NCBI RefSeq assembly: GCF_000600005.1
Contig: NZ_CP007446.1
Location: 2,320,894-2,384,893 of the forward strand
Direction of reading: 5' to 3'
From: Snodgrassella alvi wkB2
Lineage (GTDB): Bacteria; Pseudomonadota; Gammaproteobacteria; Burkholderiales; Neisseriaceae
DNA: 64,000 bases
The notes beneath the pieces are model-generated. The model was not told the origin of the DNA. It made no database searches and worked only from the letters and a program-made list of their open reading frames with translations. Positions 13,405 to 31,352 of the stretch are shown here, in pieces; position 1 is the first letter of the stretch, and every line of letters begins with the position of its first letter. Position numbers and translations under genes: made by a program.

Positions 13405-14448
13405 TTACCTGCATGAGAATCGGGCTAAACCTGATTTTAATATCAGTTTAGCCGCCTTGTCCCACATACCCGTACGTACTAATAACGAAACAGTTGCGCA
13501 AGTCGATAACTGTTTTTGTGCATATAGCTCTTTAGCCAAAAGCAAAATATCGGCTTTTTCCATTTCCGGAAGATTCATTTTTCTGAGTTTACGACACAAC
13601 CTGAAATAATAAAGATGAGCTTTATATAATAAATAAGCACAGCACTTTTTATCATCAACCACTTTATCAGCATATTCAGCCTGTGTCAGATAAGCCCTGA
13701 TACCATATACCTGTTTCAGACTCATTTTCTGCACAATCGAATCCGGCCAGATACGATAATGTACTAAAGTTTGCGGATAATAAAAGTAAGTCTGACATTG
13801 ATTCAGAATAATCGGAGTATTCGCAATATCTTCATAGGCAGGTATAGTGAAATCACACGAATCTGTTACCAAAGTACGCCGGAAAACTTTATTCCAGAAA
13901 TAATGTTTACCATCCATAATTGCAAGGCGGTATAACTCACCGTTATTCTGATGCAGCAAAGTATTTGCGGGAGTAACTGATAAATGTTCATGGTATTTAA
14001 CTTTACCGCTACCATCAAAAAAAACATCATAATCGAACAGTACTACATCCGGATGATACTCACTCAGAATATTCCTTATCTGCCGTACCGCTTGCGGTTC
14101 AATCAAATCATCTGAATCAATAAACCAGACATATTCAGCATGACTGGCCTGTAACAGACACTGGCGAACCTGAGTAATACCCAGATTTTTCTTTCCGCAC
14201 AGTATACGAATATTCACATGCGGATAACTCTGCTGATATTTGCGAATCACACTAAGTGAATTATCTGGTGAACAATCATCATAAAATATAACTTCAGTTA
14301 AAGCAGTCAAATCCGGAAATAAAGCATCCAGCAATCCGGAAAGATATGATTCAACATTAAATACAGGAATCAGAATACTTAAATCTACTTTATCTGTACC
14401 TGCATAATTATCTTTTACCCCATTCACACAACTATTCCTCAAAATCAC
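13405..14448 (-). CDS. family 2 glycosyltransferase
   Basis: GT2 enzyme with the standard N-terminal fold. DLSILIPVFN begins at about residue 22, the first Asp pair is in YDDCSPDNS, and the DxD-type metal site is FIDSDD at about residue 115. The C-terminal half probably binds the acceptor. Reading from GTG 14448 gives 347 residues and overlaps the upstream gene by 17 bases. The GTG at 14427 (340 aa) lies four bases after that gene's stop and follows a TTGAGGA Shine-Dalgarno sequence, so I prefer it. It is the last gene of a four-gene minus-strand LOS-type unit (16935 to 13405). Confidence 0.8.
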   Translation of the reverse strand: MILRNSCVNGVKDNYAGTDKVDLSILIPVFNVESYLSGLLDALFPDLTALTEVIFYDDCSPDNSLSVIRKYQQSYPHVNIRILCGKKNLGITQVRQCLLQASHAEYVWFIDSDDLIEPQAVRQIRNILSEYHPDVVLFDYDVFFDGSGKVKYHEHLSVTPANTLLHQNNGELYRLAIMDGKHYFWNKVFRRTLVTDSCDFTIPAYEDIANTPIILNQCQTYFYYPQTLVHYRIWPDSIVQKMSLKQVYGIRAYLTQAEYADKVVDDKKCCAYLLYKAHLYYFRLCRKLRKMNLPEMEKADILLLAKELYAQKQLSTCATVSLLVRTGMWDKAAKLILKSGLARFSCR

Positions 14449-15235
14449 TTTTTATTATTGGCACCAGCATACGTTGCGCACACCGCAGCACGGACAATTG
14501 CCTCCATCCCATACGAATTTGTGCTGCCAGACGACGATATTTAAAGCATACGTTACTATAAATATCGTTTGCATGAGGTTTCAGATTATTCTCAGGAGTG
14601 ATAGTAGAAACAAAAGATTCTGTATGCTCCAGACCATAATTAATACACTGATCCAGTTGAATTGCAGCGGCCGGATACACTTGTCTGGCATTCAAATCAT
14701 ATGAACGACACAAAAATGCATCAGCAAGCGCCGGTGCCGAATATTCAGCTCTGTTTAACAGCTTCCGTGCCCCGGAAGGGAATAAAACATATGCGGCGGC
14801 ACCTGTCCGATCCTGATATAACCGGCGTAACTCATAACCATCAATTAAATTAAAAGCCTTTTTACTTATCCATTTACGTCGATGGCGCGTTTCCAGATTC
14901 ACATAATCAACCTCATTTGCCAGAGGAATTAACGCAGCAAGAATATCTGCTGTTTTACGCGATAATAGAGCATCATCTTCAAGAATCAACCAAGGTTTAT
15001 CGGTATTAAGTACATATCGCCATGCAGCTTTATGGCTTAAAAAACAGGCTACCTCAGCCGGACGCAATTTACGCTCCCAGCCATTTGCTAATTGTTCATA
15101 TTGTTCACCAAGAATATCCGAACTATTAACAGCAGACAGGCGCTGCATAGGTATTTGCAAATGAATCAGTTGTTTGCGCTGAAATTCCAATCGCTCAAAT
15201 GAATGATCCAGATTAATTACTAGAGCAGAAATCAT
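14432..15235 (-). CDS. family 25 glycosyltransferase (LOS type)
   Basis: GT25 protein (267 aa), the family that holds neisserial LgtB/LgtE beta-galactosyltransferases. Features are the N-terminal VINLDHSFERLEFQRK stretch, the HKAAWR segment, and the LILEDDALL motif near residue 85 that supplies the acidic residues. The C-terminal region includes a hydrophobic PAAAIQLDQ segment typical of the family. A second GT25 gene lies at 16084 in the same unit. The genes are divergent enough to predict different linkages. The exact sugar is unknown. It overlaps or abuts the downstream GT2 gene. Confidence 0.8.
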   Translation of the reverse strand: MISALVINLDHSFERLEFQRKQLIHLQIPMQRLSAVNSSDILGEQYEQLANGWERKLRPAEVACFLSHKAAWRYVLNTDKPWLILEDDALLSRKTADILAALIPLANEVDYVNLETRHRRKWISKKAFNLIDGYELRRLYQDRTGAAAYVLFPSGARKLLNRAEYSAPALADAFLCRSYDLNARQVYPAAAIQLDQCINYGLEHTESFVSTITPENNLKPHANDIYSNVCFKYRRLAAQIRMGWRQLSVLRCAQRMLVPIIKSDFEE

Positions 15236-15262
15236 CTGTTTGTATCACCACAGATATTATAA

Positions 15263-16051
15263 TTAATCATCAGATTTTTGCTGAAATAGAACATCCTCAA
15301 TTTCTCGTATCCGATCCATGCGGCGCTGTACTTTACTTTTCCGTATTGAAAACAGCTTTCCGCTGGTTCTCAGATTTTCATGAACCACACGGGCCGCCTG
15401 TAACTGTTCGATATAAACCTGTTGTTTAGGTGCACGCAGATTGTCAGCACGATCAAATATCCAGCAAAAGCCAACAGGCAAATGAAAAACTTTATAACGA
15501 GGATTGTCAGATGCCTGATCAGCAGCAATGACAGATTGTAAAACCTCCTGATCCCAGATTTCCGGATGTGCTATACACTGCCGGTTCCATTCGGCTAGCA
15601 AGTGTCTTGCAGCCTCAGTGTCTTGGAAAAAAAGAGTTGCAGATACTAAATGACCATCTCCTAAATCATAATACACTGCAATATCACAATCCAGACTGGC
15701 AAGATATTTTAACGGAGAAACATGAAAAACCGCATCAACATCCACATACAGCATCGGTCCGCTGACTATATCACGTTCACGAAGCAAATAAGCTGCTTTA
15801 AACGACGTATTGGCTTCCCACCCACCCTGACTGGAAATAGCAGTTGTCTTAACTCTGATACCCAAACGTTCAGCAGAAGCACACATACGTTTGGCTTCAT
15901 GCGTATAAAATTCATCATCTGTATGATAGGCTACAACTGTTACCGCATCATCTGCTGATGCTTTCATCTCATCAGTCACAACCCGTGCCAGCGGAACCAC
16001 AACTTTACGATTCTTGGCTCGCCATGCATATTCTCTGCCCAGTTTAATCAT
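15263..16051 (-). CDS. putative nucleotide-diphospho-sugar transferase
   Basis: A 262-residue protein with a GT-A-like arrangement: VTVVAYHTDDEFY near residue 38, then MLYVDVDAVFHVSPL with a V-D-V-D-A metal motif near residue 105, and a downstream ATLFFQDTEAARHLLAEW stretch. It resembles the nucleotide-diphospho-sugar transferase superfamily often found beside GT25 genes. It sits between two GT25 genes, 27 bases from one and 32 from the other, so it belongs to the same transcript. Substrates are unknown. Confidence 0.6.
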   Translation of the reverse strand: MIKLGREYAWRAKNRKVVVPLARVVTDEMKASADDAVTVVAYHTDDEFYTHEAKRMCASAERLGIRVKTTAISSQGGWEANTSFKAAYLLRERDIVSGPMLYVDVDAVFHVSPLKYLASLDCDIAVYYDLGDGHLVSATLFFQDTEAARHLLAEWNRQCIAHPEIWDQEVLQSVIAADQASDNPRYKVFHLPVGFCWIFDRADNLRAPKQQVYIEQLQAARVVHENLRTSGKLFSIRKSKVQRRMDRIREIEDVLFQQKSDD

Positions 16052-16083
16052 TAGTATTATTCTCAGTGATTAACATATATTTA

Positions 16084-16935
16084 TTATAAACGTGTCCATC
16101 CATACATTTTCACAACATCAAAATGACGCCGCCAATGCCGCCCCTTAAGAAAAAATCTTTTAATTTTTTGTCCCAAAGTAAGTTTAAAACGCACACGATG
16201 AGGAATATCTGAATCCAGATTCTGAAATGCCAGCGGTTCAACCAAAAAAGCCTCTTTTAACCGGCCACCACTATAATGCCAGACCTTATCAATGGGATAA
16301 AAGAGATTTTTACTTGCCTGCAGCATATTTTTAGCTCCCTGCAAAGATACAATATAACAACATGCCAATGACGGAGCGATATCACATTCACAGGCAATCA
16401 TATGATTACAGAGCGTATGTAAACGAAAAATTTTCCACCGGACAATAGCTTTACTTTCCATAAAGCGCCATAATCTGCGCCTTACCAATTGCCAGAATCG
16501 CGGTCGGACAAACTGTTTATGCGCAATACAAGAATTAACTGCCGCAACATCAATATCGTAAAAAGGTCTTTTTAAAGTCAGATTTAAAAAATCAAAAGAC
16601 TGAAAATTTTTTTCATCAGCCAGCAAAGAAACCAGTTCAGGTTTAAGCTGAACATCATCTTCCAGAATCAGAGCATAGGGTATATTTTCATCTACCATTC
16701 TCTGCCATACCGTCTGATGGGATAAGGCACAACCAATTTCTCCATTAACGGCCTTACGTTTACATTCCAGTGCAAATCTTTTCTGGTTAAAAAAGGCTTT
16801 TTGCTCATCAGTTAAACAATTGCCATCAACTGCATTTACCCTTTCAAAAGCAATATTCAGATTTTCCAGTTGTTGTTTAACAAACATTAATCTATCCGGA
16901 CGGCGTTCAAGATTAATTAAAAAAGTTTTGAGCAT
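16084..16935 (-). CDS. family 25 glycosyltransferase (LOS type)
   Basis: Second GT25 enzyme of the unit (283 aa). It starts KTFLINLERRPDRLMFVKQQ. It carries the GCALSHQTVWQRM segment and LILEDDV near residue 95, typical of LPS/LOS GT25 transferases. It is the first gene of the four-gene minus-strand unit. The 199-base gap to the divergent 17135 gene should contain its promoter. It is likely to add one of the outer-core sugars to LOS, and specificity is not readable. Confidence 0.8.
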   Translation of the reverse strand: MLKTFLINLERRPDRLMFVKQQLENLNIAFERVNAVDGNCLTDEQKAFFNQKRFALECKRKAVNGEIGCALSHQTVWQRMVDENIPYALILEDDVQLKPELVSLLADEKNFQSFDFLNLTLKRPFYDIDVAAVNSCIAHKQFVRPRFWQLVRRRLWRFMESKAIVRWKIFRLHTLCNHMIACECDIAPSLACCYIVSLQGAKNMLQASKNLFYPIDKVWHYSGGRLKEAFLVEPLAFQNLDSDIPHRVRFKLTLGQKIKRFFLKGRHWRRHFDVVKMYGWTRL

Positions 16936-17134: not shown

Positions 17135-18208
17135 ATGTCGCAACCAACTATCATTCTGGCAATGTCAAGCTATAGTGACTTCGCTGCTGCCATTCAAAAG
17201 CATTTAGAATACCATAATTTTAAAGTTATCTTTATAAACAGCACTTCAGAGGAATTGAAGAAGCAAGTTGATTCCAGTTTTTATTATCCTAACCTGAAAT
17301 CGCACCTGATTCATACAGCCCGAAAAATTTTTCTTTCAGATTGTTCATACAAAGCATATCTGAAAGAACAAATGTACAATCAGAAATTACTGGCAAATAT
17401 TAAAAACCTATTAGACAACAATCATTACGACTATACTTTGGTTATACGCCCAGACTTATTTCCTATAGAGGCCTTACAACTGCTAAAAATTCATACAAAA
17501 AACGATTTTGTTGCTTATCAGTGGAATGGAATCAGACGATTTCCTAAAACAAAGCCGACAATAAACTTATTTGATCGTTTTTATGTATTCGATTCTGAAG
17601 ATCTGCATAATGAGGAATACCAGCAATACCGGCTAAATGGAATCAGTAATTTCTATTTTGATATGTATCAGCCACAACCTGTATCACATACCGGAACCAT
17701 CGCCTATTTCGTCGGACTACATGTAGATAGTCGCATTGCAGCTATAGAAGCCTGTGCAAATGCATTAATTAAATACGGGATAAATCTAGATTTTAATATA
17801 AAATTTCGCCCGTCTGAAGCTAGCAAAGCAGGACTATATTCTTGCAAAGAAATTCATTTTATCCCTGAAAATATTACCTTCGATGACAATTTAAAGCATA
17901 TCAACAATGCAGATATACTCATTGATATCGTTAATCCGGTTCATCATGGTTTATCATTTCGTACATTTGAAGCTTTATATTACCAAAAGAAATTAATTAC
18001 CAATAACCCACAAATCAAAAATCTTGATTTTTATCATCCGGATAACATTTTTATATGGAAGAATGCGGATGATTTACAGAAAATAGAGAGCTTTCTGGCC
18101 AGACCATTTGTCAGCATCAATCCGGATATTATAAAAAAATACAGTTTTGCAAACTGGATAAACAATATTTTAAACAGACAGCCATTCCAGAAAATATCCG
18201 TTATATAA
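17135..18208 (+). CDS. glycosyltransferase-like protein, three-member paralogous family (copy 1)
   Basis: A 357-residue protein that I do not recognise as a named family. Two more copies lie at 20886 (+) and 23591 (-). Shared landmarks are an N-terminal TIILAM start, YDYTLVIRPDLFP (about residue 100), YQWNGIRRFP (about 128), LFDRFYVFD (about 142), NFYFD (about 170), a conserved HGLSFRTFEALYYQKKLIT near residue 270, and DFYHPDNIFIW near 298. The acidic HGLSF...FEALYY region followed by KKLITNN looks like the C-terminal donor-binding motif of GT-B glycosyltransferases, so a glycosyltransferase role is likely but inferred. It has no signal peptide or membrane segment. Confidence 0.55.
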   Translation: MSQPTIILAMSSYSDFAAAIQKHLEYHNFKVIFINSTSEELKKQVDSSFYYPNLKSHLIHTARKIFLSDCSYKAYLKEQMYNQKLLANIKNLLDNNHYDYTLVIRPDLFPIEALQLLKIHTKNDFVAYQWNGIRRFPKTKPTINLFDRFYVFDSEDLHNEEYQQYRLNGISNFYFDMYQPQPVSHTGTIAYFVGLHVDSRIAAIEACANALIKYGINLDFNIKFRPSEASKAGLYSCKEIHFIPENITFDDNLKHINNADILIDIVNPVHHGLSFRTFEALYYQKKLITNNPQIKNLDFYHPDNIFIWKNADDLQKIESFLARPFVSINPDIIKKYSFANWINNILNRQPFQKISVI

Positions 18209-18605: not shown

Positions 18606-20429
18606 TTAATTTAATGATTTATCTTCAGCTGAATTGCGGTTTTCACCAAACTGCATCCGATGTAAGAATGCATAACGTCCATTTTTTGCCAGTAAGTCTG
18701 CATGCTTACCCTGCTCGACAATTTTCCCCTGATGCATCACCACAATATTATCGGCATTTTCAATAGTCGACAGGCGATGCGCGATCACAATTGTGGTCCG
18801 GTTTTTCATTAGTGTTTCCAGAGCAGACTGCACTAATCGTTCTGATTCAGTATCCAAAGCACTAGTCGCCTCATCAAGAATTAAAATAGGCGCATCTTTT
18901 AGCAATGCCCGTGCAATTGCCAAACGCTGTCGCTGACCTCCGGACAGCCTCATCCCCTGATCACCCACTTCAGTTTTTAAGCCTTCAGGCATATTACTGA
19001 TAAATGACCAGGCATTAGCAGCTTTCGCAGCCTGAATAATATCTGCCTCTGTAGCATGCGGAGAACCATAAGCAATATTATTCGCAATAGTATCATTAAA
19101 TAAAACAACATCCTGACTAACTAATGCCATTTTGGAACGAAGATTTTTCAATTCAAAATCATCAACATTTATACCACCTATACTTACATATCCGCTGGTC
19201 GTATCGTAAAATCGCGGAATAAGATTTACAGTAGAAGTTTTACCGCATCCGGACTCCCCTACTAACGCAACCACACTACCCTGTTTAATTGTCAGGTTTA
19301 GATGATCTATCGCATTTTTATCCGCATGCAGATAACGCAATGTTACATTCTGAAAAACAATATCTCCAATAGGAGCAGTCAGCTGTTTTTTCCCCTGATT
19401 TTTCTCTTCCGGTTCATCCAGAAAGTGAAATACACTATCTGCCGCTATCAGTCCGGCCTGCAAAACACTGGACATATTGGTAATCCGTTTTAACGGATCA
19501 AACATCATCAGCATAGCTGACAGAAAAGACATAAAGTCACCTGCAGTAAAGCCCGCATGACTGGCTCTTTTAGCAGCAACATATAAAATAATTGATAACG
19601 ATGTGGCAATTAACAGCTGTGTTACTGCACTGCCAATAGACGTATACGACTGACGTCTGACAGCAAGACTACGCAGAGCCTTATTGGTTTTTTCCAGACG
19701 ACTCTGTTCATACTGTTCACCACCATAAATGCGTACAACCCTTGTACCATCAATTGATTCAGACAAAATTTGCATGACCTGGCCAAGATCATTCTGACTT
19801 TTAGTAACTAATCGGCGAATACGCTTATTAATAACCCTCACACACCAGGCAATTAATGGAATGGTAACAAAAGTGATCAGTGTTAATTGCCAGTCAAGAT
19901 AAAACAACCAAATCAGAAGTCCCAAAACAGTCACACCATCTTTGGCAAAGACAGTGATCACATCAAAACCGGCAGCCGTTATTCCTTTAGCGTCATTGGT
20001 AATGCGCGACATCATGCGCCCGCGGCTGTTTTCCTGATAATAACTCACAGGTAACATCATCATTTTTGCAAACAGATCACGCTGAATTACCTGGACCATC
20101 TGATTAGAAATATAAGCACTGGTATATTCATTTATATAGTTGGCAACCCCACGAAAAATGAACAAACCGATGATTTCAAATGGTACCCATTTCATAGCTT
20201 CGATATTTTTGTCAACGAAACCATTATCAATGATCGGCTTTAACAAATAAGCAAAAAGGGGACCTGTCACACCTACGACAACCATTGCCAATACAGAAAT
20301 AAAAAAATACTTTACCAGCCCGCGCATATACGGAAATAATCTCTTATAAAGATTATGCGGTGAAAAAGCATCAGCCTTTTTACTTTTTTTCATTCGCTTC
20401 CCAGAACAATCAAATACAAAACAAAACAC
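18606..20429 (-). CDS. msbA: lipid A export ABC transporter, ATP-binding/permease
   Basis: Half-size ABC exporter that flips lipid A-core (LOS) across the inner membrane as a homodimer. An N-terminal six-span membrane domain is followed by an ATPase domain with Walker A (GESGCGKTS, about residue 390), signature LSGGQRQRLAIARALL and Walker B ILILDEATSALD. The longest reading starts at GTG 20429, but ATG 20393 (MKKSKKADAF, 595 aa) follows GGGAAG at good spacing and is the likely start. Its position inside the glycosyltransferase region fits a role in exporting the LOS these genes build, although it is transcribed alone. Confidence 0.92.
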   Translation of the reverse strand: MFCFVFDCSGKRMKKSKKADAFSPHNLYKRLFPYMRGLVKYFFISVLAMVVVGVTGPLFAYLLKPIIDNGFVDKNIEAMKWVPFEIIGLFIFRGVANYINEYTSAYISNQMVQVIQRDLFAKMMMLPVSYYQENSRGRMMSRITNDAKGITAAGFDVITVFAKDGVTVLGLLIWLFYLDWQLTLITFVTIPLIAWCVRVINKRIRRLVTKSQNDLGQVMQILSESIDGTRVVRIYGGEQYEQSRLEKTNKALRSLAVRRQSYTSIGSAVTQLLIATSLSIILYVAAKRASHAGFTAGDFMSFLSAMLMMFDPLKRITNMSSVLQAGLIAADSVFHFLDEPEEKNQGKKQLTAPIGDIVFQNVTLRYLHADKNAIDHLNLTIKQGSVVALVGESGCGKTSTVNLIPRFYDTTSGYVSIGGINVDDFELKNLRSKMALVSQDVVLFNDTIANNIAYGSPHATEADIIQAAKAANAWSFISNMPEGLKTEVGDQGMRLSGGQRQRLAIARALLKDAPILILDEATSALDTESERLVQSALETLMKNRTTIVIAHRLSTIENADNIVVMHQGKIVEQGKHADLLAKNGRYAFLHRMQFGENRNSAEDKSLN

Positions 20430-20885: not shown

Positions 20886-21890
20886 ATGACTCGTAAAACC
20901 ATCATATTAGCTATGCCACCAAGCAATGGTATAGTTGAATTAATTGAAAAAAACCTTCAATTTCACGGATATCAAGTTTTACGATTAGATAGTGTACTGA
21001 AATTCAAATATAACAGTATTTGGGAACGTGTATATCACTTTCTGCACAAAAATATCACCCAGAGTAAGACATATAAAAAAACTCTACGAGAAAAACAAAG
21101 TTTTCATAAAGCAAAACAACTTCTGGCAGATAATCTTTATGACTATGCCTTAGTTATCCGGCCAGATATCTATCCGCCAAAGGTATTGGCTTTATTAAAA
21201 AAGCATACTAAAAAAAGATTTATTGGCTATCAATGGGATGGACTAAAACGCTTTCCAGTAAAAAATATTATTCATTTATTTGATCGGTTTTTTATTTTTG
21301 ATCATACCGATTTAAATAACGCTGACTACCAAAACCATCAACTGTACAGTACTACTAATTTCTATTTTGATGTTATAAAGCCGGATTATGTCCAAAATGA
21401 TAAGTTAGAAGCTTACTATATTGGTGACCATCAGAAAAGTCGCGTTGCCATGATAGAGCAATGTGCCGAAAAACTTGCGGAAAATGGAGTCCGTATTAAA
21501 TTTATAATACCTACGAGCAAAAAAAGTGATATTAAATGTTATAAATCAAAATATCTTACTTTTGGTAAAAAAAATCGCCTATCTTATCAAGATAACTTAA
21601 AAAACGTCTCTACAGCGGATATTCTGGTAGATTTTGTTATTGCAGAACATAACGGTTTATCATTCCGCCATTTTGAAGCACTTTACTACAAAAAAAAATT
21701 AATCACCACCAACAAACACATTCAATATTATGATTTTTATCATCCGAATAATATATTCATTTGGGACGATAAAAATTTGGGAGAGATAAATAACTTTCTT
21801 ATGAAACCATATAGCCCTATAAATCCGGATATAATTGCGAAATACAGTTTTAAAAACTGGATAGAAAATATTTTAGGTATAAATTCATAA
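20886..21890 (+). CDS. glycosyltransferase-like protein, three-member paralogous family (copy 2)
   Basis: A 334-residue paralogue of the 17135 and 23591 proteins. It keeps the landmarks KTIILAMP, YDYALVIRPDIYP, YQWDGLKRFP, LFDRFFIFD, NFYFD, HGLSFRHFEALYYKKKLIT and DFYHPNNIFIW. It differs from the other two in a more basic composition (many Lys), and is about 15-23 residues shorter than the other two. It has no signal or membrane segment. As with copy 1, a GT-B-like glycosyltransferase role is inferred from the C-terminal motif only. It is followed by degenerate DNA and probably stands alone. Confidence 0.55.
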   Translation: MTRKTIILAMPPSNGIVELIEKNLQFHGYQVLRLDSVLKFKYNSIWERVYHFLHKNITQSKTYKKTLREKQSFHKAKQLLADNLYDYALVIRPDIYPPKVLALLKKHTKKRFIGYQWDGLKRFPVKNIIHLFDRFFIFDHTDLNNADYQNHQLYSTTNFYFDVIKPDYVQNDKLEAYYIGDHQKSRVAMIEQCAEKLAENGVRIKFIIPTSKKSDIKCYKSKYLTFGKKNRLSYQDNLKNVSTADILVDFVIAEHNGLSFRHFEALYYKKKLITTNKHIQYYDFYHPNNIFIWDDKNLGEINNFLMKPYSPINPDIIAKYSFKNWIENILGINS

Positions 21891-22089: not shown

Positions 22090-22523
22090 TTATAAAAAAA
22101 TAACTTATAGTAACAATATAAAGAACAATAATTTATTTCAACAAAATACGATTCAAACCATTACAAATTGGATTTATAACAATAATGTTTTTGGAATTGG
22201 TACTGAATGGATTACTACTTCTGTTGCAACAACAGCTATTTTACAAGTGTGTATTACAGCGAACCGAAATAAACAACAATATTTAGGCGAAATCAATCAT
22301 TGCACATTAAATGTGCCATAAAACATCATACTATCTCATACCACAGGAAATTCCTGCAGAGAAAAAAGATGTTACACAATTACTCACTTTAGGCGGTTGG
22401 CCATGTGGCGTTATAGGACATTGGAAAGCTAATAAGAACAAGATAAAACCTGAAATTTATAGAATAGCAACTAAATTTTTTGATAAATATCCTGAATTAA
22501 TTAAGAATTATTTGATGAATTAA
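22090..22523 (+). pseudogene. degenerate coding fragment, frameshifted
   Basis: One frame reads coherently from about 22090 (VSEFKFIKKITYSNN...) through NVFGIGTEWITTSVATTAI to a stop just after 22311. The neighbouring frame then continues from 22311 with HKTSYYLIPQEIPAEKKDV and a C-terminal half ending KNYLMN at 22523. The join looks like one broken gene with a single frameshift near 22310. No start codon with a ribosome binding site was found. I do not recognise the product. It may be the N-terminal part of the GT2 pseudogene that follows. Confidence 0.5.
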
Positions 22524-22544
22524 TATAACTATTAACGAAAATCT

Positions 22545-23595
22545 ATACTCAATTAAAAGTTGGTCTGATATACAACTAAACAATATAAAACATAATAATT
22601 CAGTAGCAATCATCATGCGGACCAAAAATCGCCCTGTATTATTAGCTCGGGCATTGGAAAGTGTTATTCAACAAAGCTATACAAACTGGCATTTATATCT
22701 GGTTAATGACGGAGGTGATACCAGCTCCGTTAATCAATTAATTGATCTGAATTTTATAGATTTAAACCATAAAATTACCGTAATACATAACAATTATTCC
22801 TTAGGAATGGAAGCAGCATCTAACTGCGGTCTAAATATTGCTAATGAAGAATATTTAGTCATACACGATGACGCCTAGCACCCTGATTTTTTTTAAAAGA
22901 AACTGTTGCCTATCTCAATTCAGAACAACAAGCTGTTGTTGTATTAACAAATTGTATTATCATTAATGAAGAAATTCAGGAAGATAAATCCATTCAACTT
23001 GGTACAATGCGATGGCCTAACAGACATGATCAGGTTGATATTACAACTTTAATAAAAAAATAATGTATCTCCTCCGGTATGCTTACTTATTAGAATGAGC
23101 GTTGCTAAACAAATTGGTGAATTCAACAAAAACTTACCCGTTTTGGGAGATTGGGATTACATATTACGATTGTTTAAAGCTGGTGAAATAAAAACATTAA
23201 ATAAGATTTTAGCCTATTATTATCTTAGACCAAATCACAGTAATAATTATGGGAATTCGGTTATCGCAGCAATAGATAGACACCAAAAATATCATGTTGA
23301 ATTTAGAAATTCTTTTGTTCGTCAATCTATTTTAGAAAATCAGGGAAATTATAGTATTTTACATATACTGTTAAATGATAATATGAAAAATATAACTTAT
23401 TATCACAAAAAATCGATAAACTAGATCATAAAATCGTCAATATCCAAAGAAATGTTTATTCTTTACGAAGAAAATCATTTCCCTTAAAGAGGCTGGCAGC
23501 AAAACTACAGCGGTACATAAAAAAAGGAGACATAAAATTTAAAATTAATCTAATACTACATATATATTTTCTAAATGGTTCAATTTTAATTTATT
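22545..23595 (+). pseudogene. decayed family 2 glycosyltransferase gene
   Basis: Fragments in different frames join into one GT2 protein. SVAIIMRTKNRPVLLARALE and YLVNDGGD come first, then VIHDDA and a TAG (22876-22878) where a Trp would be expected before HPDF. Next is a T8 run (about 22887-22894), past which the frame shifts to KETVAYLNSEQQAVVVLTN. An A7 run near 23055-23062 then shifts it to NVSPPVCLLIRM and the 23095-23424 frame (VLGDWDYILRLFKAGEI). A third shift comes near 23390, giving LLSQKIDKLDHKIVNIQRN. One nonsense codon plus three frameshifts indicate inactivation. Intact relatives place the motif LGDWDY in the acceptor half. It probably once worked with the neighbouring LOS glycosyltransferases. 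Confidence 0.8.
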
Positions 23596-24661
23596 GAAAA
23601 GGCAAGCGTATTTTATCATATGGGGATAAATTTAGAATATTCTTTATCCAATTACCAAAACTATATTTTTTTACAATTTCATCATCTATCGGTCTAAAGG
23701 GTTTAGATAAAAACTCTTTAATTTTTTGTGAAAGATCATCTTTATGCCAGATAAGAATATTATCAGGATGATAAAAATCGTAGTTAGATACATTAACATT
23801 ATTAGTAATTAATTTTTTCTGGTAATACAAAGCTTCAAAAATCCGAAAAGATAAACCATTATGAAGTGGATTAACGAAATCGACAATAATATCTATTTCG
23901 TTTAACATTTCTATATTTTGAGAAAAATCAATTTCATTTTCGGCACCAAAGATAAAATAATCAGAGCAATGGTATTGATTAATCTTATCCTGATTACTCG
24001 TAGGGATAATAAACTTTAGCTGAATACCGTTTTCAATTAACTCTGCTGCACAATATTCAATGTCAGCAACACGTTCGGAAACATGTGTTCCTACAAAATA
24101 TGCTATTGTTCCTTTATGCTTTATCGGTTGCGGTTTGTTCATATCAAAATAAAAATTGGTTATTCCTTCCAATTTATGGTTTTGATAATTATTATCTACT
24201 ATATCATAGCTATCAAATACATAAAATTTATCAAATAAATTTATTGTTTCTTTTGTACAAGGCATACGTCTCATTCCATCCCACTGATAAGCAATAAATT
24301 CGTTTTTTGTATGTGCTTTCATCAAATTTAATAAGCTTATTGGATACAAATCAGGACGTATAATAATAGCATATTCATAATTTCTTTTATTTAACGCTTG
24401 CTCAGCATTTGATAAAAGTAATTTTTCTTTTAACTTTGTTTTATATGAATAATTTCTAAAAAAAAGCTTTTGCACCAGATTATACAAATAATCTTTAAAA
24501 CTCTGATAATGAAAATGCTTGATATATTCTGGGTAGTTATCTATGTACAATACCTCAAATCCGTAAAATTCCAGATTTTTTTTGATTTGTAAGTAAATAT
24601 TACGGCTTTTAGGCATACCCAGAATAATTGTTTTTGTCATAAAATATACCTTATCTCCCAT
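23591..24661 (-). CDS. glycosyltransferase-like protein, three-member paralogous family (copy 3)
   Basis: Third paralogue (356 aa as the longest frame). The aligned starts of the other two copies (MSQPTIILAM, MTRKTIILAM) point to ATG 24640 (MTKTIILGMP, 349 aa), which follows TAAGG at eight bases. Landmarks are YEYAIIIRPDLYP, YQWDGMRRMP, LFDKFYVFD, NFYFD, HGLSFRIFEALYYQKKLIT and DFYHPDNILIW. By eye it is closer to copy 1 than to copy 2. It is transcribed towards the GT2 pseudogene and divergent from rmlB. Function is inferred as in copy 1. Confidence 0.55.
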   Translation of the reverse strand: MGDKVYFMTKTIILGMPKSRNIYLQIKKNLEFYGFEVLYIDNYPEYIKHFHYQSFKDYLYNLVQKLFFRNYSYKTKLKEKLLLSNAEQALNKRNYEYAIIIRPDLYPISLLNLMKAHTKNEFIAYQWDGMRRMPCTKETINLFDKFYVFDSYDIVDNNYQNHKLEGITNFYFDMNKPQPIKHKGTIAYFVGTHVSERVADIEYCAAELIENGIQLKFIIPTSNQDKINQYHCSDYFIFGAENEIDFSQNIEMLNEIDIIVDFVNPLHNGLSFRIFEALYYQKKLITNNVNVSNYDFYHPDNILIWHKDDLSQKIKEFLSKPFRPIDDEIVKKYSFGNWIKNILNLSPYDKIRLPFQ

Positions 24662-24849: not shown

Positions 24850-25923
24850 ATGAATATTCTTATCACTGGAGGAGCAGGATTTATTGGGTCAGCAGTTATC
24901 AGATATCTGATCAATGAAACTGACCATAAAATTTTGAATGTTGACAAATTAACCTATGCCGGTAACTTAGAATCATTAGTCACCATTGCAAATAATTCCC
25001 GTTATCATTTTTGTCAGGCCGATATTAGTGATCAAGCACTTATAACACAATTATTTAAGCAATTTCAGCCAGATACAGTAATGCATCTGGCAGCAGAATC
25101 ACATGTTGATCGTTCAATATCCAGCTCAGCAGAATTTATTCAGACTAATATTGTAGGCACATTTCAACTTTTGGAAATAAGTCGTCATTACTGGGAAAAT
25201 TTGCCTGAAGAAAAACAACATCTATTTCGCTTCCATCACATTTCAACTGATGAAGTTTATGGTGATCTTAGTGATTTAAGTACAGAATTATTTACAGAAT
25301 CTACTCCATACGCTCCAAGTTCACCCTATTCAGCCAGTAAGGCAAGTTCAGATCATCTGGTTCGTGCCTGGCATCGTACTTATGGACTGCCAGTTATTAT
25401 TACAAATTGCTCAAATAATTATGGACCTTATCATTTCCCGGAGAAATTAATCCCATTAACTATTCTTAATGCTTTACAAGGTAAAAAACTGCCTGTATAC
25501 GGAAATGGTGAACAAATCCGGGACTGGCTGTATGTTGAAGATCACGCCAGAGCTTTATATCAGGTTGTCACAAAAGCCAAAGCAGGCAGTACTTATAATA
25601 TTGGAGGGCATAATGAACAGAAAAATATTGATGTAGTAAAAAATATATGTAATCTTCTAGATGAACTGGTGCCCAATAAAACACTTGGGATAAAATCCTA
25701 CAAAGATTTAATCACATTTGTTCCGGATCGTCCCGGACATGATGTACGTTATGCTATTGATGCGAGTAAGATTAAACAAGAACTTGGCTGGGAACCAAAA
25801 GAAAATTTTCAATCAGGTTTACGCAAAACCGTATTATGGTATTTAAACAATCAGGATTGGGTAAATCATATTCTGACCGGAGAATATCAGAAATGGATAC
25901 AACAACAATACCACCCGCAATAA
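24850..25923 (+). CDS. rfbB: dTDP-glucose 4,6-dehydratase
   Basis: Second step of dTDP-L-rhamnose synthesis: dTDP-glucose to dTDP-4-keto-6-deoxyglucose, NAD+-dependent (357 aa, normal length). It is a short-chain dehydrogenase/epimerase with GGAGFIG at residues 7-13, the STDEVYG segment with the catalytic Asp-Glu (about 132-138) and YSASK (about 161) carrying the Tyr-Lys pair. It is first in the rfbB-rfbA-rfbC unit: the gap to rfbA is 67 bases and rfbA to rfbC only 2. The order B-A-C without rfbD is noteworthy. Confidence 0.95.
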
Positions 25924-25990: not shown

Positions 25991-26881
25991 ATGGTTAAAC
26001 GAAAGGGTATTATACTGGCTGGCGGATCCGGAACCAGACTTTATCCTATTACTTTAGGCGTATCAAAACAGTTATTACCCATTTATGATAAACCGATGAT
26101 TTACTATCCCCTTTCTGTACTTATGCTGGCCGGGATACGAGAAATCATGATTATTTCAACTCCTGCAGATTTACCTAATTTTAAAAAAATGTTAGGTGAC
26201 GGCAGAGATTTAGGAATTGATTTATCTTATAAAGTACAACCATCTCCTGACGGATTGGCACAAGCTTTTATTCTCGGAGCAGAATTTATTGGCAAAGATA
26301 ATGTCACACTTATTCTGGGTGATAACATTTTTTACGGGCAAAGTTTCGGTGCACAATTACAAAAGGCAGCACAACAGGAAAAAGGTGCTACCGTATTCGG
26401 TTATTATGTCAATGATCCTGAGAGATTCGGTGTAGTCGAATTTGACACCAATGGAAAAGCACTTTCCATAGAGGAAAAACCGAATGAAGCAAAATCAAAT
26501 TATGCAATTACAGGATTGTATTTTTATGATAATGACGTTATTGAGATAGCCAAGAGTATTCGTCCTTCACCCAGAGGTGAACTTGAAATAACCGATATTA
26601 ACAATGCTTATTTAAATAAGAAATTATTAAATGTTGAAATACTTGGACGTGGCTTTGCCTGGCTGGATACTGGTACACATGATTCACTGATTGAAGCCAG
26701 CTGTTTTGTTCAGACAATTGAAAAAAGACAAGGTTTAAAAATAGCATGTCTTGAAGAAATTGCTTTTAATAATAGCTGGATAGATTTAGATCAATTGTAT
26801 AAACGCGGCAAACTTTTTCAAAAGACAGATTATGGTCAATATCTATTAAAACTATATAGTGAATTTTCTAGGAAAGCCTGA
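25991..26881 (+). CDS. rfbA: glucose-1-phosphate thymidylyltransferase
   Basis: First step of the dTDP-sugar pathway: glucose-1-phosphate plus dTTP to dTDP-glucose (296 aa, normal). The nucleotidyltransferase motif [11 protein letters not shown] starts at residue 11, with the conserved [14 protein letters not shown] and GDNIFYG segments following. An AAGGAA ribosome binding site lies upstream. Tightly coupled to rfbC, whose ATG begins two bases after its stop. Confidence 0.95.
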
Positions 26882-26883
26882 AT

Positions 26884-27462
26884 ATGAATGTGATTGAGAC
26901 TAAGATTAAAGATCTGCTGATTTTAGAACCCAGAGTTTTTGCAGACAATCGTGGTTGGTTTATGGAAAGTTTTAACCAGACAACTTTTAATTCTATTCTA
27001 TCGTCATATAATCAATCAATTGTAAACTTTGTACAAGATAATCACTCAATTTCACATAGGGGCGTAATCCGTGGATTGCATTATCAGATAAATCCACATG
27101 CTCAAGGAAAACTTGTAAGAGTAGTCAGTGGAAAAGCATGGGATGTCGCTGTGGATATACGGACATCATCTCCAACTTTTGGTCAATGGGTGGGAGTCGA
27201 GCTATCTGAAAACAATCTTCGGCAATTCTGGATACCCGCTGGATTCGCACATGGTTTTATTGCCTTAGAAGATAATACTCAATTCTTATATAAAACCACC
27301 AATTATTATTCTAAAGAATGCGAACGCAGCCTATTATGGAATGATACAGATTTAGCTATTAATTGGCCAATTAAAAGAAATATGTCAATAAATCAAACTG
27401 ATAAAGACAACAATGCTTCTAAACTTAAAGAGTTAATAAATAATAATATTGATCTTTTTTAA
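26884..27462 (+). CDS. rfbC: dTDP-4-dehydrorhamnose 3,5-epimerase
   Basis: Cupin-fold epimerase (192 aa) converting dTDP-4-keto-6-deoxyglucose to dTDP-4-keto-L-rhamnose. Conserved features are the RGLHYQ active-site His segment (about residues 62-67), the KLVRVVSGKAWDVAVD beta strands and GFAHGF near residue 120. It ends the rfbBAC unit with a strong terminator. The usual next gene, rfbD (the reductase making dTDP-L-rhamnose), is not in this window. Either it lies elsewhere or the pathway branches to another 6-deoxy sugar. Confidence 0.94.
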   Translation: MNVIETKIKDLLILEPRVFADNRGWFMESFNQTTFNSILSSYNQSIVNFVQDNHSISHRGVIRGLHYQINPHAQGKLVRVVSGKAWDVAVDIRTSSPTFGQWVGVELSENNLRQFWIPAGFAHGFIALEDNTQFLYKTTNYYSKECERSLLWNDTDLAINWPIKRNMSINQTDKDNNASKLKELINNNIDLF

Positions 27463-27524: not shown

Positions 27525-30500
27525 TTAACTAACTAAACCCCTACCACAATAATCATCATCCAGAATTAATTCTTCTAAAACTTTATTGCTTTTTGTTTGT
27601 AATGTAAAACAAAATTCTTTGTACAGAATATCGGCAATTAACAATGAAGGATTGAAATCATTATACATATTCTTTCTAATATCAACAGAATCATGAACAA
27701 AATCTATAGCTCCTTGTTGCAACTGAGCTCGTATAGATCGTGTTGCCAGTTCTTCCTCAGACAAGTCTTTAAATTTACCTTTTAAATTAATATTTTCATC
27801 AATAATATATTTAATAATTTGAGGATCATCAGCACTTAACAACTTTTCCAATTCAAAGCTATGAGAAAATAGTTTAGAGTCATGGAACTTAGATTTACAA
27901 TTATCAACATAGCAACCTTTTATCATAATATTATTTTCTAAACCTTCAATATGTGAAACCATAGTTGCAAAATAATATCCATGAATTGGCTTCATTAATA
28001 GTTTGTTTAATGCTTTTTGTATAGTACCAGAATATCCAACATCCACAACACTAGATGTTTGATTTGAATTAATATTTACTTGCTCCAAATACATCATTAA
28101 TGTTTGCTTTTCTATTTTAGCTTCATTAATAATATCTTCTTTAAGAAAATCTAATAAAGGCTTCAAATGTATAATATTTTTTTGTTTTATACTTAATTTC
28201 TCATTTTTAATCCATAATTTTTTCTGATAAATTTCTTCCCATCTTTCAGGATCCAACTTTAAACCAAATCTCTCAATAAAATAATTCTGGATATCATTTT
28301 CAAAATAATTTTTTTCGGCAATGGCAATAATATCTTCCATATTAGTGATATCGGGTACAGTTACACACCGACGAGATAATTGCAAATAAATGCTTTTAGG
28401 ACTATTATTTTCTGTTATACTCCATAAGTCATATACTTGTTTAATAAATTTACCTTCTCTGGCCAAAAAGTACAGTGTATTTATTTTATCAACTTTTGCC
28501 TGCTCAATTAACCATTGACAGAATGCTGTTACAACAGGTCCTACTAAGTTATAACCTAACTGATAAGGATTTGAATTAAACAAAGAAAGAAATTCAGATT
28601 TATTTTTAGTTAAAAATATATTATTTAGATTTTTTTTAACTAATAGACCTATTGTTAACTCTTTATTAATATCATTTTTAATTAATCCTTTACTCATTAA
28701 ATTTGAGTATGAAGGTAAAGCAAAAGCTAAGTCAGAAGCTCTCAAAATATGAAGACATTTTATTCCATATTTTTCTGTAGGTAACTGTAAATCGGAACGC
28801 TCATTATCTCCAATCATAATCATTGCATTGCTATCTATGCTTTCTTTTTTTAATACATATTCATATAATTCACCACTATCTTTTCGTTTTCCTATATCTG
28901 ATGACAAATATAAATTATCCCATGTATCAATTCCATTTTGAAATAGCATTGTTTCAATAATATCTTTTGTTAGGAACATATCACTGATTAAAATTACTTT
29001 CTTACCAATATTTTTAGCATAATTTAGTATTTGAACTATTTCTTGTCTGGCACTTACAGAAGATATTTCCACTTTTTCTTCAATTTTTTGGATATAGTGA
29101 ACTTTACTTTCTGGAAGTTTGGATAATTGTTGAAATTGATCATAAATGTCATTTATAGATACATCTTTGCCTCCTTTTTTTATTCTGGACTCAGACTCAG
29201 CAATACCACGATACTTTTCGAATGCTATTTTACTTTCATTATCAAGAGATAATGCAACTATTCGTTTAGTATGATCAGGATTTAATAATGGTCTTATTAG
29301 AAGTGTATCAAATATATCAAAAGCAACGATTTTTATTTTTTCTTGGTTAATTTTCGATTTATAAAAATCTATATTTCGATTAAAATACTGTGTATCAAAA
29401 CGATAAGTCGACCAGGATGGGTTTTCTCTTTCTTTAAGGACAATTGAGTTATATCCTGTTTGAGCAGGAACAACTCCTAATAATCTCTCAAGGACGTGTG
29501 CCAACGTTCCATCAGTTTGCCCTCGTTCCTCTGGAAAATCTTCCCATTTGAAATTCAAGTTAAATAAAGGTTTTAATGCATCTGTTCGAGCCCAAAACAT
29601 TGAACCTACTGGAAAATTAAAATAACCTTCAACCATAGGTAATTTTAATCGATTTAATATTTGGTGACCTTGAGTACGATTTGCTAACCAAGTACATGCA
29701 AAGTAAGGAAGGCGATGATACATTTGAGGATAGATTATCCCTATTTTTTTATTTCCTAAAAATAATGAAAAGATTTTTTGTATATTTGATGAATTTCCAA
29801 AGAGTGAGTTAAATAAATAGCTGCGCCAACCGTCAGTTGCACCATTATTATATTTAGATTTTTTACTTTGTAAATGTGCAATATATTCATATTGTTTTAG
29901 TTTTGAACCAAAAACAACAAACATTGGAGCTATATCTCTACCTTTATTTGGAACTATTTGTATATCAAGGATATTAATTTTTTTTATTTTTTCAAATCTT
30001 TTTTTGCATAAATTTTCAGTATCCTTATCAGTAACTGAAACAAACACATCAAATTTAAAAGGCACTTTAGATAATTGTTCAACAAACTCGTTTATTAAAT
30101 CTTTATAAAAAATATGGCAATGTACTGCCACACTACCTGGCTGACCTTTTAAGTTTGAATTCTGCGATTCTATATCTAATAATATATAGTTATTATAGCA
30201 AATATTTTTCTTTAAAGATAATACTTTTGGATGATTTTTAAACCAGCTTGGATGAACTTTAATTGCCCAATTTAATAAAGCTGGTTGCCATTTTTTAGGA
30301 AATTTATAATAAATTTTTCTTAATTTATTACGTAATGATTTTTTTAATAATTTTATAAATTCTTTTTTCTTCTTTTTAAATTTAGATAATAAGTAATTTA
30401 ATGATTTTAAATTAAATAATGAATGACGTTCTATTATTTTATTTAAGATTTGCTGCTGACTATTTAATTGTAACTGAAAATTTTCATTCTTTTCAGTATT

Positions 30501-31352
30501 AAAAATTAAAAATTCTGTTATTATTTTTTCAAAATAATTCTGTTTTTCAATTATATGATTTTTTGTATTTTCAATAAGGTTTTTTATATCATTATTACTT
30601 GGCATTACTTTATCATTTAATTTCTCTTGTGAAGAATAATTATCTGATTTTATATCTACTCTTGAACATATTAATTCTCCCAACCGAGCAAATAATTTTG
30701 TTATTACGGCTTCATCATATCCTGAAATATCTGTTTTCAACTTCTCATTCAAAATAGCTTGACTCATACTTCCAATAAATAATACACCTAACCCATGAGA
30801 ATGTTTAAATTCATAATGTGGATATTGTAAACGTAACTCTTCCCAAAATTTCCATACACCAAAATTACGTTCTCGGACATTGATATCATGAAATAATATA
30901 ATACCATTATCAGACATCTTGGGTAACCAATTTAAAAAATCGTGTTTAACAGCCTCATATGTATGAAAACCATCAATATGTAATAAATCAATACTATTTT
31001 CATTGAAATATGAGTTCGCTTCATCAAATGTCATACGCATTAAATTAGAAAATTCTGCATAGTGCTCATTGTGGTATTTAGCTAATTCTATATATACATT
31101 CTCCGCATAATTACCCGCATGTTCATCTCCTTTCCATGTGTCAACAGCATAACATTTAGCATCAATACAATTTTCTGCTACAGCCTGACACATAGCTAAA
31201 TAGGAATTACCAGAATGAGTACCTAATTCTACGATCACACTTGGTTGTTGTTCTTCAATAAGCCAGCTAACAAATGGTATATGCCCACACCATCCATAAG
31301 GCCATGTTAACTTACGAGGCTCGGTTAACATAGAATTATTAACTTTAAACAT
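27525..31352 (-). CDS. methyltransferase-RgpF-HAD fusion protein of surface glycan synthesis
   Basis: A 1275-residue multidomain protein. Residues 1-200 form a class I SAM-dependent methyltransferase (VELGTHSGNS at 41-50, IDLLHIDGFHTYEAV at 121-135), of the CmcI/Methyltransf_24 type. Residues 250-350 are lysine-rich and probably helical. Residues 405-640 match the rhamnan synthesis protein F (RgpF) family: SVAVHCHIFY, NKGRDIAPM (469-477), HLQSKKSKY, PVGSMFWART and GQTDGTLAHVLERLLG. Residues 675-870 are a HAD hydrolase with D679-I-F-D682-T, S790, K822/K824 and D849/D854, continuing into a C-terminal region of about 400 residues (COG5610-like). It lies next to rmlBAC, which suits a role in modifying a deoxysugar glycan. 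No signal peptide or membrane span was seen. The reaction order is inference. Confidence 0.75.
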   Translation of the reverse strand: MFKVNNSMLTEPRKLTWPYGWCGHIPFVSWLIEEQQPSVIVELGTHSGNSYLAMCQAVAENCIDAKCYAVDTWKGDEHAGNYAENVYIELAKYHNEHYAEFSNLMRMTFDEANSYFNENSIDLLHIDGFHTYEAVKHDFLNWLPKMSDNGIILFHDINVRERNFGVWKFWEELRLQYPHYEFKHSHGLGVLFIGSMSQAILNEKLKTDISGYDEAVITKLFARLGELICSRVDIKSDNYSSQEKLNDKVMPSNNDIKNLIENTKNHIIEKQNYFEKIITEFLIFNTEKNENFQLQLNSQQQILNKIIERHSLFNLKSLNYLLSKFKKKKKEFIKLLKKSLRNKLRKIYYKFPKKWQPALLNWAIKVHPSWFKNHPKVLSLKKNICYNNYILLDIESQNSNLKGQPGSVAVHCHIFYKDLINEFVEQLSKVPFKFDVFVSVTDKDTENLCKKRFEKIKKINILDIQIVPNKGRDIAPMFVVFGSKLKQYEYIAHLQSKKSKYNNGATDGWRSYLFNSLFGNSSNIQKIFSLFLGNKKIGIIYPQMYHRLPYFACTWLANRTQGHQILNRLKLPMVEGYFNFPVGSMFWARTDALKPLFNLNFKWEDFPEERGQTDGTLAHVLERLLGVVPAQTGYNSIVLKERENPSWSTYRFDTQYFNRNIDFYKSKINQEKIKIVAFDIFDTLLIRPLLNPDHTKRIVALSLDNESKIAFEKYRGIAESESRIKKGGKDVSINDIYDQFQQLSKLPESKVHYIQKIEEKVEISSVSARQEIVQILNYAKNIGKKVILISDMFLTKDIIETMLFQNGIDTWDNLYLSSDIGKRKDSGELYEYVLKKESIDSNAMIMIGDNERSDLQLPTEKYGIKCLHILRASDLAFALPSYSNLMSKGLIKNDINKELTIGLLVKKNLNNIFLTKNKSEFLSLFNSNPYQLGYNLVGPVVTAFCQWLIEQAKVDKINTLYFLAREGKFIKQVYDLWSITENNSPKSIYLQLSRRCVTVPDITNMEDIIAIAEKNYFENDIQNYFIERFGLKLDPERWEEIYQKKLWIKNEKLSIKQKNIIHLKPLLDFLKEDIINEAKIEKQTLMMYLEQVNINSNQTSSVVDVGYSGTIQKALNKLLMKPIHGYYFATMVSHIEGLENNIMIKGCYVDNCKSKFHDSKLFSHSFELEKLLSADDPQIIKYIIDENINLKGKFKDLSEEELATRSIRAQLQQGAIDFVHDSVDIRKNMYNDFNPSLLIADILYKEFCFTLQTKSNKVLEELILDDDYCGRGLVS

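Follow-up and report, generated by a model that had tools for sequence, protein, structure and literature searches.

The locus described here raises the question of what is done by a single protein that carries a methyltransferase, an RgpF domain and a phosphatase. Its gene lies in a 64,000-nucleotide stretch (the window) of the genome of Snodgrassella alvi wkB2 (G000 below; a single contig of 2,527,978 bases), a member of a genus that lives in the bee gut, and forms a single unbroken open reading frame (ORF) of 1275 amino acids on the minus strand (27525..31352). Our analysis gives the order S-adenosylmethionine (SAM) methyltransferase, helical linker, RgpF half-domain, haloacid dehalogenase (HAD)-type phosphoribose phosphatase (PRP) and glycan phosphoribosyltransferase (gPRT), the last of which is predicted to depend on phosphoribosyl pyrophosphate (PRPP). 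With a probability of about 0.6, we consider the protein to be a glycan assembler on a single polypeptide that carries its own cap.

The fused gene and its predicted ribofuranosyltransferase

An earlier note on this stretch, made by eye, had proposed that the methyltransferase, RgpF and HAD modules are fused in one protein. The gene product is a real fusion: the ORF is intact, and the profile searches that the note had suggested gave matches to Methyltransf_24, RgpF and HAD, each above the Pfam gathering score. Among 14 genomes of the genus, the full-length protein is found in three, namely G000, G008 (74% identity) and G003 (67-69% identity, in two pieces of one frame). Because the whole order is kept in these two orthologues and the ratio of nonsynonymous to synonymous substitution rates (dN/dS) is low in all catalytic modules (0.09-0.16 in each of the four against both orthologues), the fusion is more than chance, and the comparison indicates that the four fused modules are under purifying selection. 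The corresponding values for the linker were 0.33 and 0.50.

The roughly 400 residues after the HAD domain had been described as a COG5610-like tail, but they constitute a fourth catalytic module, the gPRT (residues 890-1275 with the stop codon; 27525..28685, minus strand; profile and fold matches). The preceding PRP (residues 668-880; 28713..29351, minus strand) was identified by Pfam, profile and fold matches, with the Pfam HAD Hydrolase match covering residues 673-855 (E = 2.4e-8). When solved structures were searched with phmmer, the HAD domain and the tail matched Bcs3, the capsule polymerase of Haemophilus type b, and 7shg, a ribofuranosyl transferase, and a 27-row profile spanned both domains in Bcs3 (E = 1e-63) and in 7shg, which is from Thermobacillus (E = 9.6e-61). 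In the AlphaFold2 (AF2) model of residues 375-1275 (mean predicted local distance difference test score, pLDDT, 85.5), the eight best fold matches were all Bcs3 or 7shg; the rmsd of 12-23 against them suggests that the arrangement of the domains in the model differs from theirs.

Residues expected to be catalytic were examined in two alignments of 27 (A2) and 47 (A3) rows, the window protein included, which take in 26 of 48 core references and 46 of 61 methyltransferase references, respectively; two of the latter were re-cut, and some of the 48 core references are the same gene twice. In Bcs3, D386 of the phosphatase CrpP is the nucleophile, D680 and E818 of the transferase CriT are the counterpart of the phosphoribosyltransferase DD motif, and PRPP binding involves S707 and R708 (PMC10299916). 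These five residues align with D679, E966, D1104, S993 and R994 of the window protein, in a register counted by hand. Among the 21 rows that cover the PRP, 20 have D679, 19 S790, 21 K824, 20 D849 and 21 D854. In the gPRT, all 16 rows have R965, S993 and R994 and carry D or E at position 966; at position 1104, 16 of 17 rows have D and one has E. One row of A2 (L009) has altered HAD residues, and that protein may be inactive. Of the HAD motif residues named in the earlier note, D679, D682, S790, K824, D849 and D854 are indeed kept in 19-21 of the 21 rows, but D682 lies off the nucleophile position: the motif reads D679-I-F-D682, so that D679 alone occupies the canonical place. Likewise, only the first Asp of the DXD motif is conserved in CrpP (PMC10299916).

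By sequence and fold, the HAD domain and the tail thus make up a two-step ribofuranosyltransferase of the PRPP-dependent kind. In such enzymes the gPRT moves ribofuranose-5-phosphate (Ribf-5-P) from PRPP and the PRP dephosphorylates the product (PMC11127046). We class the protein as a carrier of this activity, with PRPP use and a beta-Ribf product as predictions. The earlier proposal that the HAD domain decorates a glycan by removing or transferring phosphate on its own was not supported: the profile and fold matches pair it with the gPRT, and an independent phosphatase or phosphotransferase role was rejected on that basis.

The RgpF half, the methyltransferase head and the linker

Ahead of the PRP lies the C-terminal half of an RgpF domain (residues 379-634; 29451..30218, minus strand; Pfam E = 4.8e-53), a probable rhamnosyltransferase, in which 17 of the 26 checked positions are invariant across all 18 rows. 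RgpF of lactococci has been described as an enzyme that adds rhamnose (Rha) from dTDP-Rha (PMC10821137). The position beside rmlBAC that had been described for the gene was correct: rmlB (24850..25923), rmlA (25991..26881) and rmlC (26884..27462), all on the plus strand, exceed the NCBIfam equivalog cut-offs (TIGR01181, TIGR01207 and TIGR01221, respectively), and the fusion gene converges with rmlC and ends 62 bp from its stop codon. RmlD is encoded elsewhere in the genome. The link is strengthened by a second, distant lineage in which the same core is linked to rml genes: the homologue in G227 is directly downstream of rmlB-rmlD-rmlA-rmlC, all four above the NCBIfam cut-offs, and that in G140 has rmlD and rmlA upstream, both confirmed. 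Because of the family annotation and the rml linkage in two lineages, the sugar added by the RgpF half is probably L-rhamnose.

The N-terminal SAM methyltransferase (Methyltransf_24, residues 41-157; 30882..31232, minus strand; Pfam E = 1.7e-27) is the proposed chain-capping module. E42 and G44 are kept in all 47 rows of A3, and D71, D127, H155 and D156 in 46 each; when G48 is included, the seven residues are kept in 45-47 rows. For residues 1-410, AF2 predicts a methyltransferase with confidence, followed by helices at 253-310 and 316-348 (mean pLDDT 77.5). Among 459 fold matches of the methyltransferase at E <= 0.001, the top solved structure was that of the Mycobacterium hassiacum enzyme MeT1 (E = 7.6e-10), which blocks a sugar hydroxyl by methylating a mannoside polysaccharide precursor at its 1-OH (PMC9883506). 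The long helices (residues 253-348; 30309..30596, minus strand) are proposed to be a coiled-coil spacer, and heptad-like windows were found in them with a non-specific score. In one orthologue (L004) the linker contains a 28-residue tandem unit, equal to four heptads, with 14 of 28 residues identical versus a best of 10 in 200 shuffles; this single case suits a spacer that varies in length by whole heptads. The order of modules matches the layout of polymerase-terminators (N-terminal terminator, coiled coil, C-terminal glycosyltransferases), with a coil of moderate confidence and a putative terminator activity.

The same succession of RgpF, PRP and gPRT is also present in G184 (L037), G227 (L038), G140 (L039) and, more distantly, G426 (L040), and in five further genomes RgpF and PRP form one gene with gPRT as the neighbouring gene (L041, L043, L044, L045 and L048). 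The N-terminal heads of these relatives are of other kinds, Sulfotransfer_3 in G227 and G140 and PIG-L plus a GT2 glycosyltransferase domain in G184. In BLASTP comparisons, the similarity of the window protein to the G227 homologue extends from residue 296, inside the linker, to the last residue (40% identity), and that to the G184 homologue starts at residue 164 (36% overall) and is convincing only from the linker onward. An APS kinase gene directly follows the sulfotransferase-headed gene in G140 and G227 (L116:12704-13306 and L117:11942-12541), which fits a sulfotransferase dependent on 3'-phosphoadenosine 5'-phosphosulfate (PAPS). A Wzm together with a Wzt that has a Wzt_C domain is encoded about 14 kb from the gene in G140 and about 7 kb from it in G184; the 20-kb contig of the gene in G227 gave no ABC2_membrane match.

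Proposed glycan assembly, capping and export

In the mechanism we propose, the RgpF half would first transfer a sugar, most likely L-rhamnose, with the donor dTDP-Rha supplied by the adjacent RmlABC and by RmlD encoded elsewhere. The C-terminal gPRT would then put Ribf-5-P from PRPP onto the residue added by RgpF. The PRP would strip the 5-phosphate, leaving a chain able to grow, and the two transfers could alternate through repeated cycles until the methyltransferase, beyond a helical linker that may act as a ruler, methylates the non-reducing end and stops growth. The capping step is proposed because of the N-terminal position of the methyltransferase, the linker, the exchange of this module among relatives and the published logic of terminators; the MeT1 fold match and the glycosyltransferase domains in most of the long methyltransferase-headed proteins scanned in other genera also speak for it. 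In Snodgrassella the acceptor would most likely be the core of lipooligosaccharide (LOS), exported by MsbA. Part of the function suggested in the earlier note is retained here, namely a surface-glycan protein, the link to rhamnose genes and a possible methyl cap at the chain end; the restriction to modification is not, since with two sugar-transfer modules the protein most likely builds the glycan as well as capping it.

The proposed route of export and attachment derives from what the locus encodes (three WaaS/CpsH glycosyltransferases, GT25 enzymes and MsbA) and from what the genome appears to lack. Wzt_C was not found in G000, the one Snodgrassella genome searched for it. ABC2_membrane gave three matches in G000, to a 253-aa protein beside an ATPase and to frames of 375 and 942 aa; the first looks YadG/YadH-like, and on reading none of the three appears to be a Wzm or KpsM. 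None of these lies near the gene, and of three matches each in G003 and G008 none is on the contig of the fusion gene. An ABC-exported O-antigen in Snodgrassella was rejected on these grounds (Wzt_C in G000, ABC2_membrane near the gene in G000, G003 and G008). A Wzx/Wzy/WaaL route was also rejected: Polysacc_synt (PF01943, Wzx-type) gave no match in the five Snodgrassella genomes searched, Polysacc_synt_3 (PF13440) gave one weak match each in G000, G003 and G008, read as MurJ-like, and Wzy_C gave one match in each of the five genomes, with the G000 protein also matching PglL_A, so that the only ligase-like protein found in G000 appears to be of the PglL type. As the searches of G000 turned up neither Wzm/Wzt nor Wzx, and a PglL-type protein alone among ligases, the most probable product is an LOS-linked glycan exported by MsbA. 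The protein would work like a coiled-coil polymerase-terminator, but we do not class it as one because no partner Wzm/Wzt with a cap-binding Wzt_C was found in G000.

Several points weigh against the assembler with its own cap. We found no biochemistry or glycan structure for this locus. With no Wzm/Wzt found in G000, a capped polymer would be without a known reader, whereas the polymerase-terminators of Klebsiella O3, O5 and O12 use a cap-reading Wzm/Wzt (PMC11231755). The lead of MeT1 over other O-methyltransferases is narrow (7.6e-10 versus 1.2e-9 and 2.1e-9), and because these score so close behind, the fold alone leaves the substrate of the methyltransferase unsettled. The linker helices are of moderate AF2 confidence only (block pLDDT 51-77), and in five of the seven sequences to which it was applied the heptad score also flags stretches beyond the linker. 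The RgpF match covers only positions 243-503 of the 503-position profile and not its full length, a property shared with L037-L041 and L090, whose matches likewise begin at about profile position 257-271, and RgpF proteins may transfer other sugars. An RmlC match is present in all 14 genus genomes and the intact fusion gene in three, which makes the local linkage to rml less telling than it seems and means that dTDP-Rha has further users. Lastly, the capsule locus of Vibrio sp. KMM 8419 holds an annotated RgpF+HAD gene of 677 aa, and its capsule consists of rhamnose and glucose, with ribose absent (PMC11641403). That gene, which is known here by its annotation, may serve another glycan of its locus; alternatively, the RgpF+HAD pair may not always be used for the repeat unit.

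The LOS-type locus with msbA and glycosyltransferases of a non-repeat core would also suit a protein that polymerizes nothing: each module would act once, and a single Rha-Ribf(-OMe) branch on the LOS outer core would result, without repeats or length control. In favour of such a branch are also the failure to find an O-antigen exporter or flippase, with a PglL-type protein as the only ligase detected, and the shortness of the linker (AF2 helices 253-310 and 316-348). The most probable of the alternatives, it is possible; against it stand the homologues of the same core near Wzm/Wzt in two genomes, where polymers are expected, and the tandem unit in the L004 linker (14 of 28 identities against at most 10 in 200 shuffles).

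A second alternative denies the cap, with the methyltransferase instead decorating either an intermediate or a residue within each unit. We regard this as unlikely: its place at the N-terminus ahead of a helical linker resembles that of WbdD- and WbbB-type terminators (PMC3482155, PMC11231755), and in other genomes the same core has a sulfotransferase in this position, even if a decoration would be in keeping with the failure to find a cap-reading Wzt_C protein in G000. More doubtful still is a glycan built on undecaprenyl phosphate and passed to proteins, not to LOS, by the PglL-type ligase. In its favour, the PglL_A and Wzy_C protein is the sole ligase-like protein found in G000, but PF01943 detected no Wzx-type flippase, the one weak PF13440 match was read as MurJ-like, and the gene stands within an LOS-type locus with msbA. 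That the gene is non-functional and decaying, as stop-broken remnants at the same place in G002 and its AT-richness (27.4% GC versus 39.7% for the window) might suggest, is hardly credible given the intact ORF and the low dN/dS that each of the four catalytic modules shows in both comparisons with an orthologue.

Within the assembler reading, a wider version can be offered only tentatively: a fixed RgpF-PRP-gPRT core with a coiled coil and interchangeable caps, in Snodgrassella moved from an ABC-exported O-antigen to an LOS exported by MsbA. Here the interchangeable heads would be the methyltransferase in Snodgrassella, the PAPS-type sulfotransferase in two genomes and PIG-L/GT2 in a third. 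If this is true, a single protein both lengthens LOS and caps it directly, as a polymerase-terminator without an exporter of its own. The exchange of methyl and sulfate heads on a constant core would be a natural series for studying the choice of chain end and the measurement of length, and the absence of a cap-reading exporter makes the purpose of the cap directly testable.

Known systems, distribution and neighbouring genes

Each type of module has known counterparts, and their combination in one protein looks like a new arrangement; no earlier report of this architecture was found in open-licence PMC papers, searched both for the architecture and for Snodgrassella surface glycans, although the 2022 founding survey of the PRP/gPRT family may already list RgpF fusions. 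Bcs3 of Haemophilus influenzae type b (8a0c, 8a0m; PMC10299916) likewise has a HAD phosphatase (CrpP) and then a PRPP-type ribofuranosyltransferase (CriT) in one multi-enzyme chain, and its acid pair and SR motif align with the window protein, but it carries a ribitol-phosphate transferase and an SH3b domain in place of the RgpF-type module and SAM methyltransferase of the window protein. The polysaccharide ribofuranosyl transferase of Thermobacillus composti (7shg) has the same order of PRP and gPRT, both of which were matched, but its 648-residue chain was matched in these two domains only, without an RgpF or methyltransferase match. Klebsiella pneumoniae O7 ORF6/ORF7 makes a polymer of rhamnose and ribofuranose, as is proposed for the window protein, and has an N-terminal methyl-phosphate terminator, a coiled coil and C-terminal rhamnosyltransferases (PMC11231755), a layout that the window protein may share. 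The O7 system differs in its GT2-type rhamnosyltransferases, methyltransferase-kinase, separate ribofuranosyltransferase and Wzm/Wzt (PMC11231755), whereas in the window protein all is on one chain, the Pfam scan of the 1275 residues gave no kinase domain, and no Wzm/Wzt was found. In WbdD (Escherichia coli O8/O9a) and WbbB (K. pneumoniae O12), a coiled coil keeps the terminator apart from the polymerase, as may be the case here; the E. coli O8 terminator requires the methyltransferase only (PMC3482155), and WbbB joins polymerase and terminator in one protein (PMC11231755). These two systems differ in their sugars, glycosyltransferase families and cap-reading ABC exporter. The discussion in PMC11231755 sees nothing inherent that bars a ribofuranosyltransferase from a multifunctional protein, a possibility that the window protein, as a one-protein system, would realize. 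The analysis also predicts, from sequence alone, that a symbiont of the bee gut carries ribofuranose in one of its surface glycans.

Besides the three genomes with the full-length protein and G002 with its remnants, four of the 14 genus genomes have a distant PRP-gPRT protein alone (frames of 716-722 aa), and none of these parts is present in the other six. G008 (L132, L030) carries the fused protein plus a stand-alone PRP-gPRT and GT2, which suggests that it carries out two ribose-adding steps. In the family, to which Kingella kingae presumably also belongs, 14 of 83 genomes match in some part. At the phylum level, 40 of 398 genomes match at E <= 1e-15, with the full order in G000 only among the matches scored; at most two candidates were scored in many genomes, so that architectures there may be missed. 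In G361 the methyltransferase and RgpF matches are in frames of equal length (1255 aa) and probably belong to one protein. A scan of genome contigs with two methyltransferase peptides gave 49 loci, full-length only in L066 (S. alvi WF3-3) and L067 (Snodgrassella gandavensis LMG 30236), records that correspond to two members of the genus set; because it searches by the methyltransferase, full-length proteins whose methyltransferase differs at both peptides would be missed. The search for the same architecture that the earlier note had suggested gave the full order in three Snodgrassella genomes only, with no other full-length case in the scans run. The O-antigen of K. kingae is atypical, with no obvious wzx/wzy, and its authors expect ABC export; ribose is unmentioned in the part of the report available (PMC9615999).

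Other combinations of the modules are MT-PRP-gPRT (MT, methyltransferase) in L079, MT-RgpF in L090 and L098, and PRP-RgpF in L107. The L079 protein, from a Desulfobacteraceae metagenome-assembled genome, has 1232 aa, with the same kind of methyltransferase and PRP-gPRT and no RgpF match. The 49 loci contain 50 methyltransferase ORFs, 27 of them of at least 700 aa, and in eight long methyltransferase-headed proteins of other genera, glycosyltransferase domains were above the Pfam cut-off in six, just under it in L084 and not detected in L072. These architecture counts come from models of three close sequences at loci that are often cut, and distant domains are missed (Pfam, for instance, detects an RgpF domain in L101). 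The evidence from genes next to the split RgpF-PRP genes is weak: of five sulfotransferase-like neighbours, one had a Pfam match (L120; none in L119, L121, L122 and L123). A Wzm-like protein was found in 15 of the 49 loci, in 11 beside an ABC ATPase, which is weak support because the loose threshold also picks up the YadH-like protein (L028). In other genera of the family (L035 in G080 and L036 in G038), PRP-gPRT is encoded by a gene of its own (about 655 aa) with GT2-like and MsbA-like neighbours, the MsbA-like ABC transporter being 38-40% identical to the window MsbA; these loci hint that ribofuranose in LOS may be more widespread in the family.

In the window, msbA, the lipid A-core exporter and proposed export route, lies at 18606..20429 (minus strand; NCBIfam TIGR02203 above cut-off), and three glycosyltransferase genes of the WaaS/CpsH family (NCBIfam NF053598) lie at 17135..18208 (plus), 20886..21890 (plus) and 23591..24661 (minus). 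LOS-type glycosyltransferase genes with Pfam matches to GT2, GT25, Nucleotid_trans and GT25 occupy 13405..16935 (minus). A promoter scan gave 40 sites versus 36.8 expected and was uninformative; phase variation through homopolymer tracts was rejected, as the longest runs in the gene, 8 A, are too short for the argument. In G005 (L131) an rmuC-like gene directly follows rmlC without the fusion gene between them, so that the fusion gene appears to have been added between rmlC and the gene beside it. The same locus has a polysaccharide pyruvyl transferase gene (L131:10227-11039) after stand-alone PRP-gPRT/GT2 genes. The stretch between the second and third WaaS/CpsH genes is decayed: short ORFs at 22311-23424 (plus strand) match the end of a stand-alone PRP-gPRT of 708-709 aa and the next GT2 (G005, L131; G008, L132), and appear to be what is left of another ribofuranosyltransferase operon that has decayed close to the intact fusion. 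Elsewhere in the genome (L028:2093-7270, minus strand), the neighbour of a murA-like gene encodes a repeat protein of 1725 aa that is rich in glycine and aspartate and looks RTX-like by eye.

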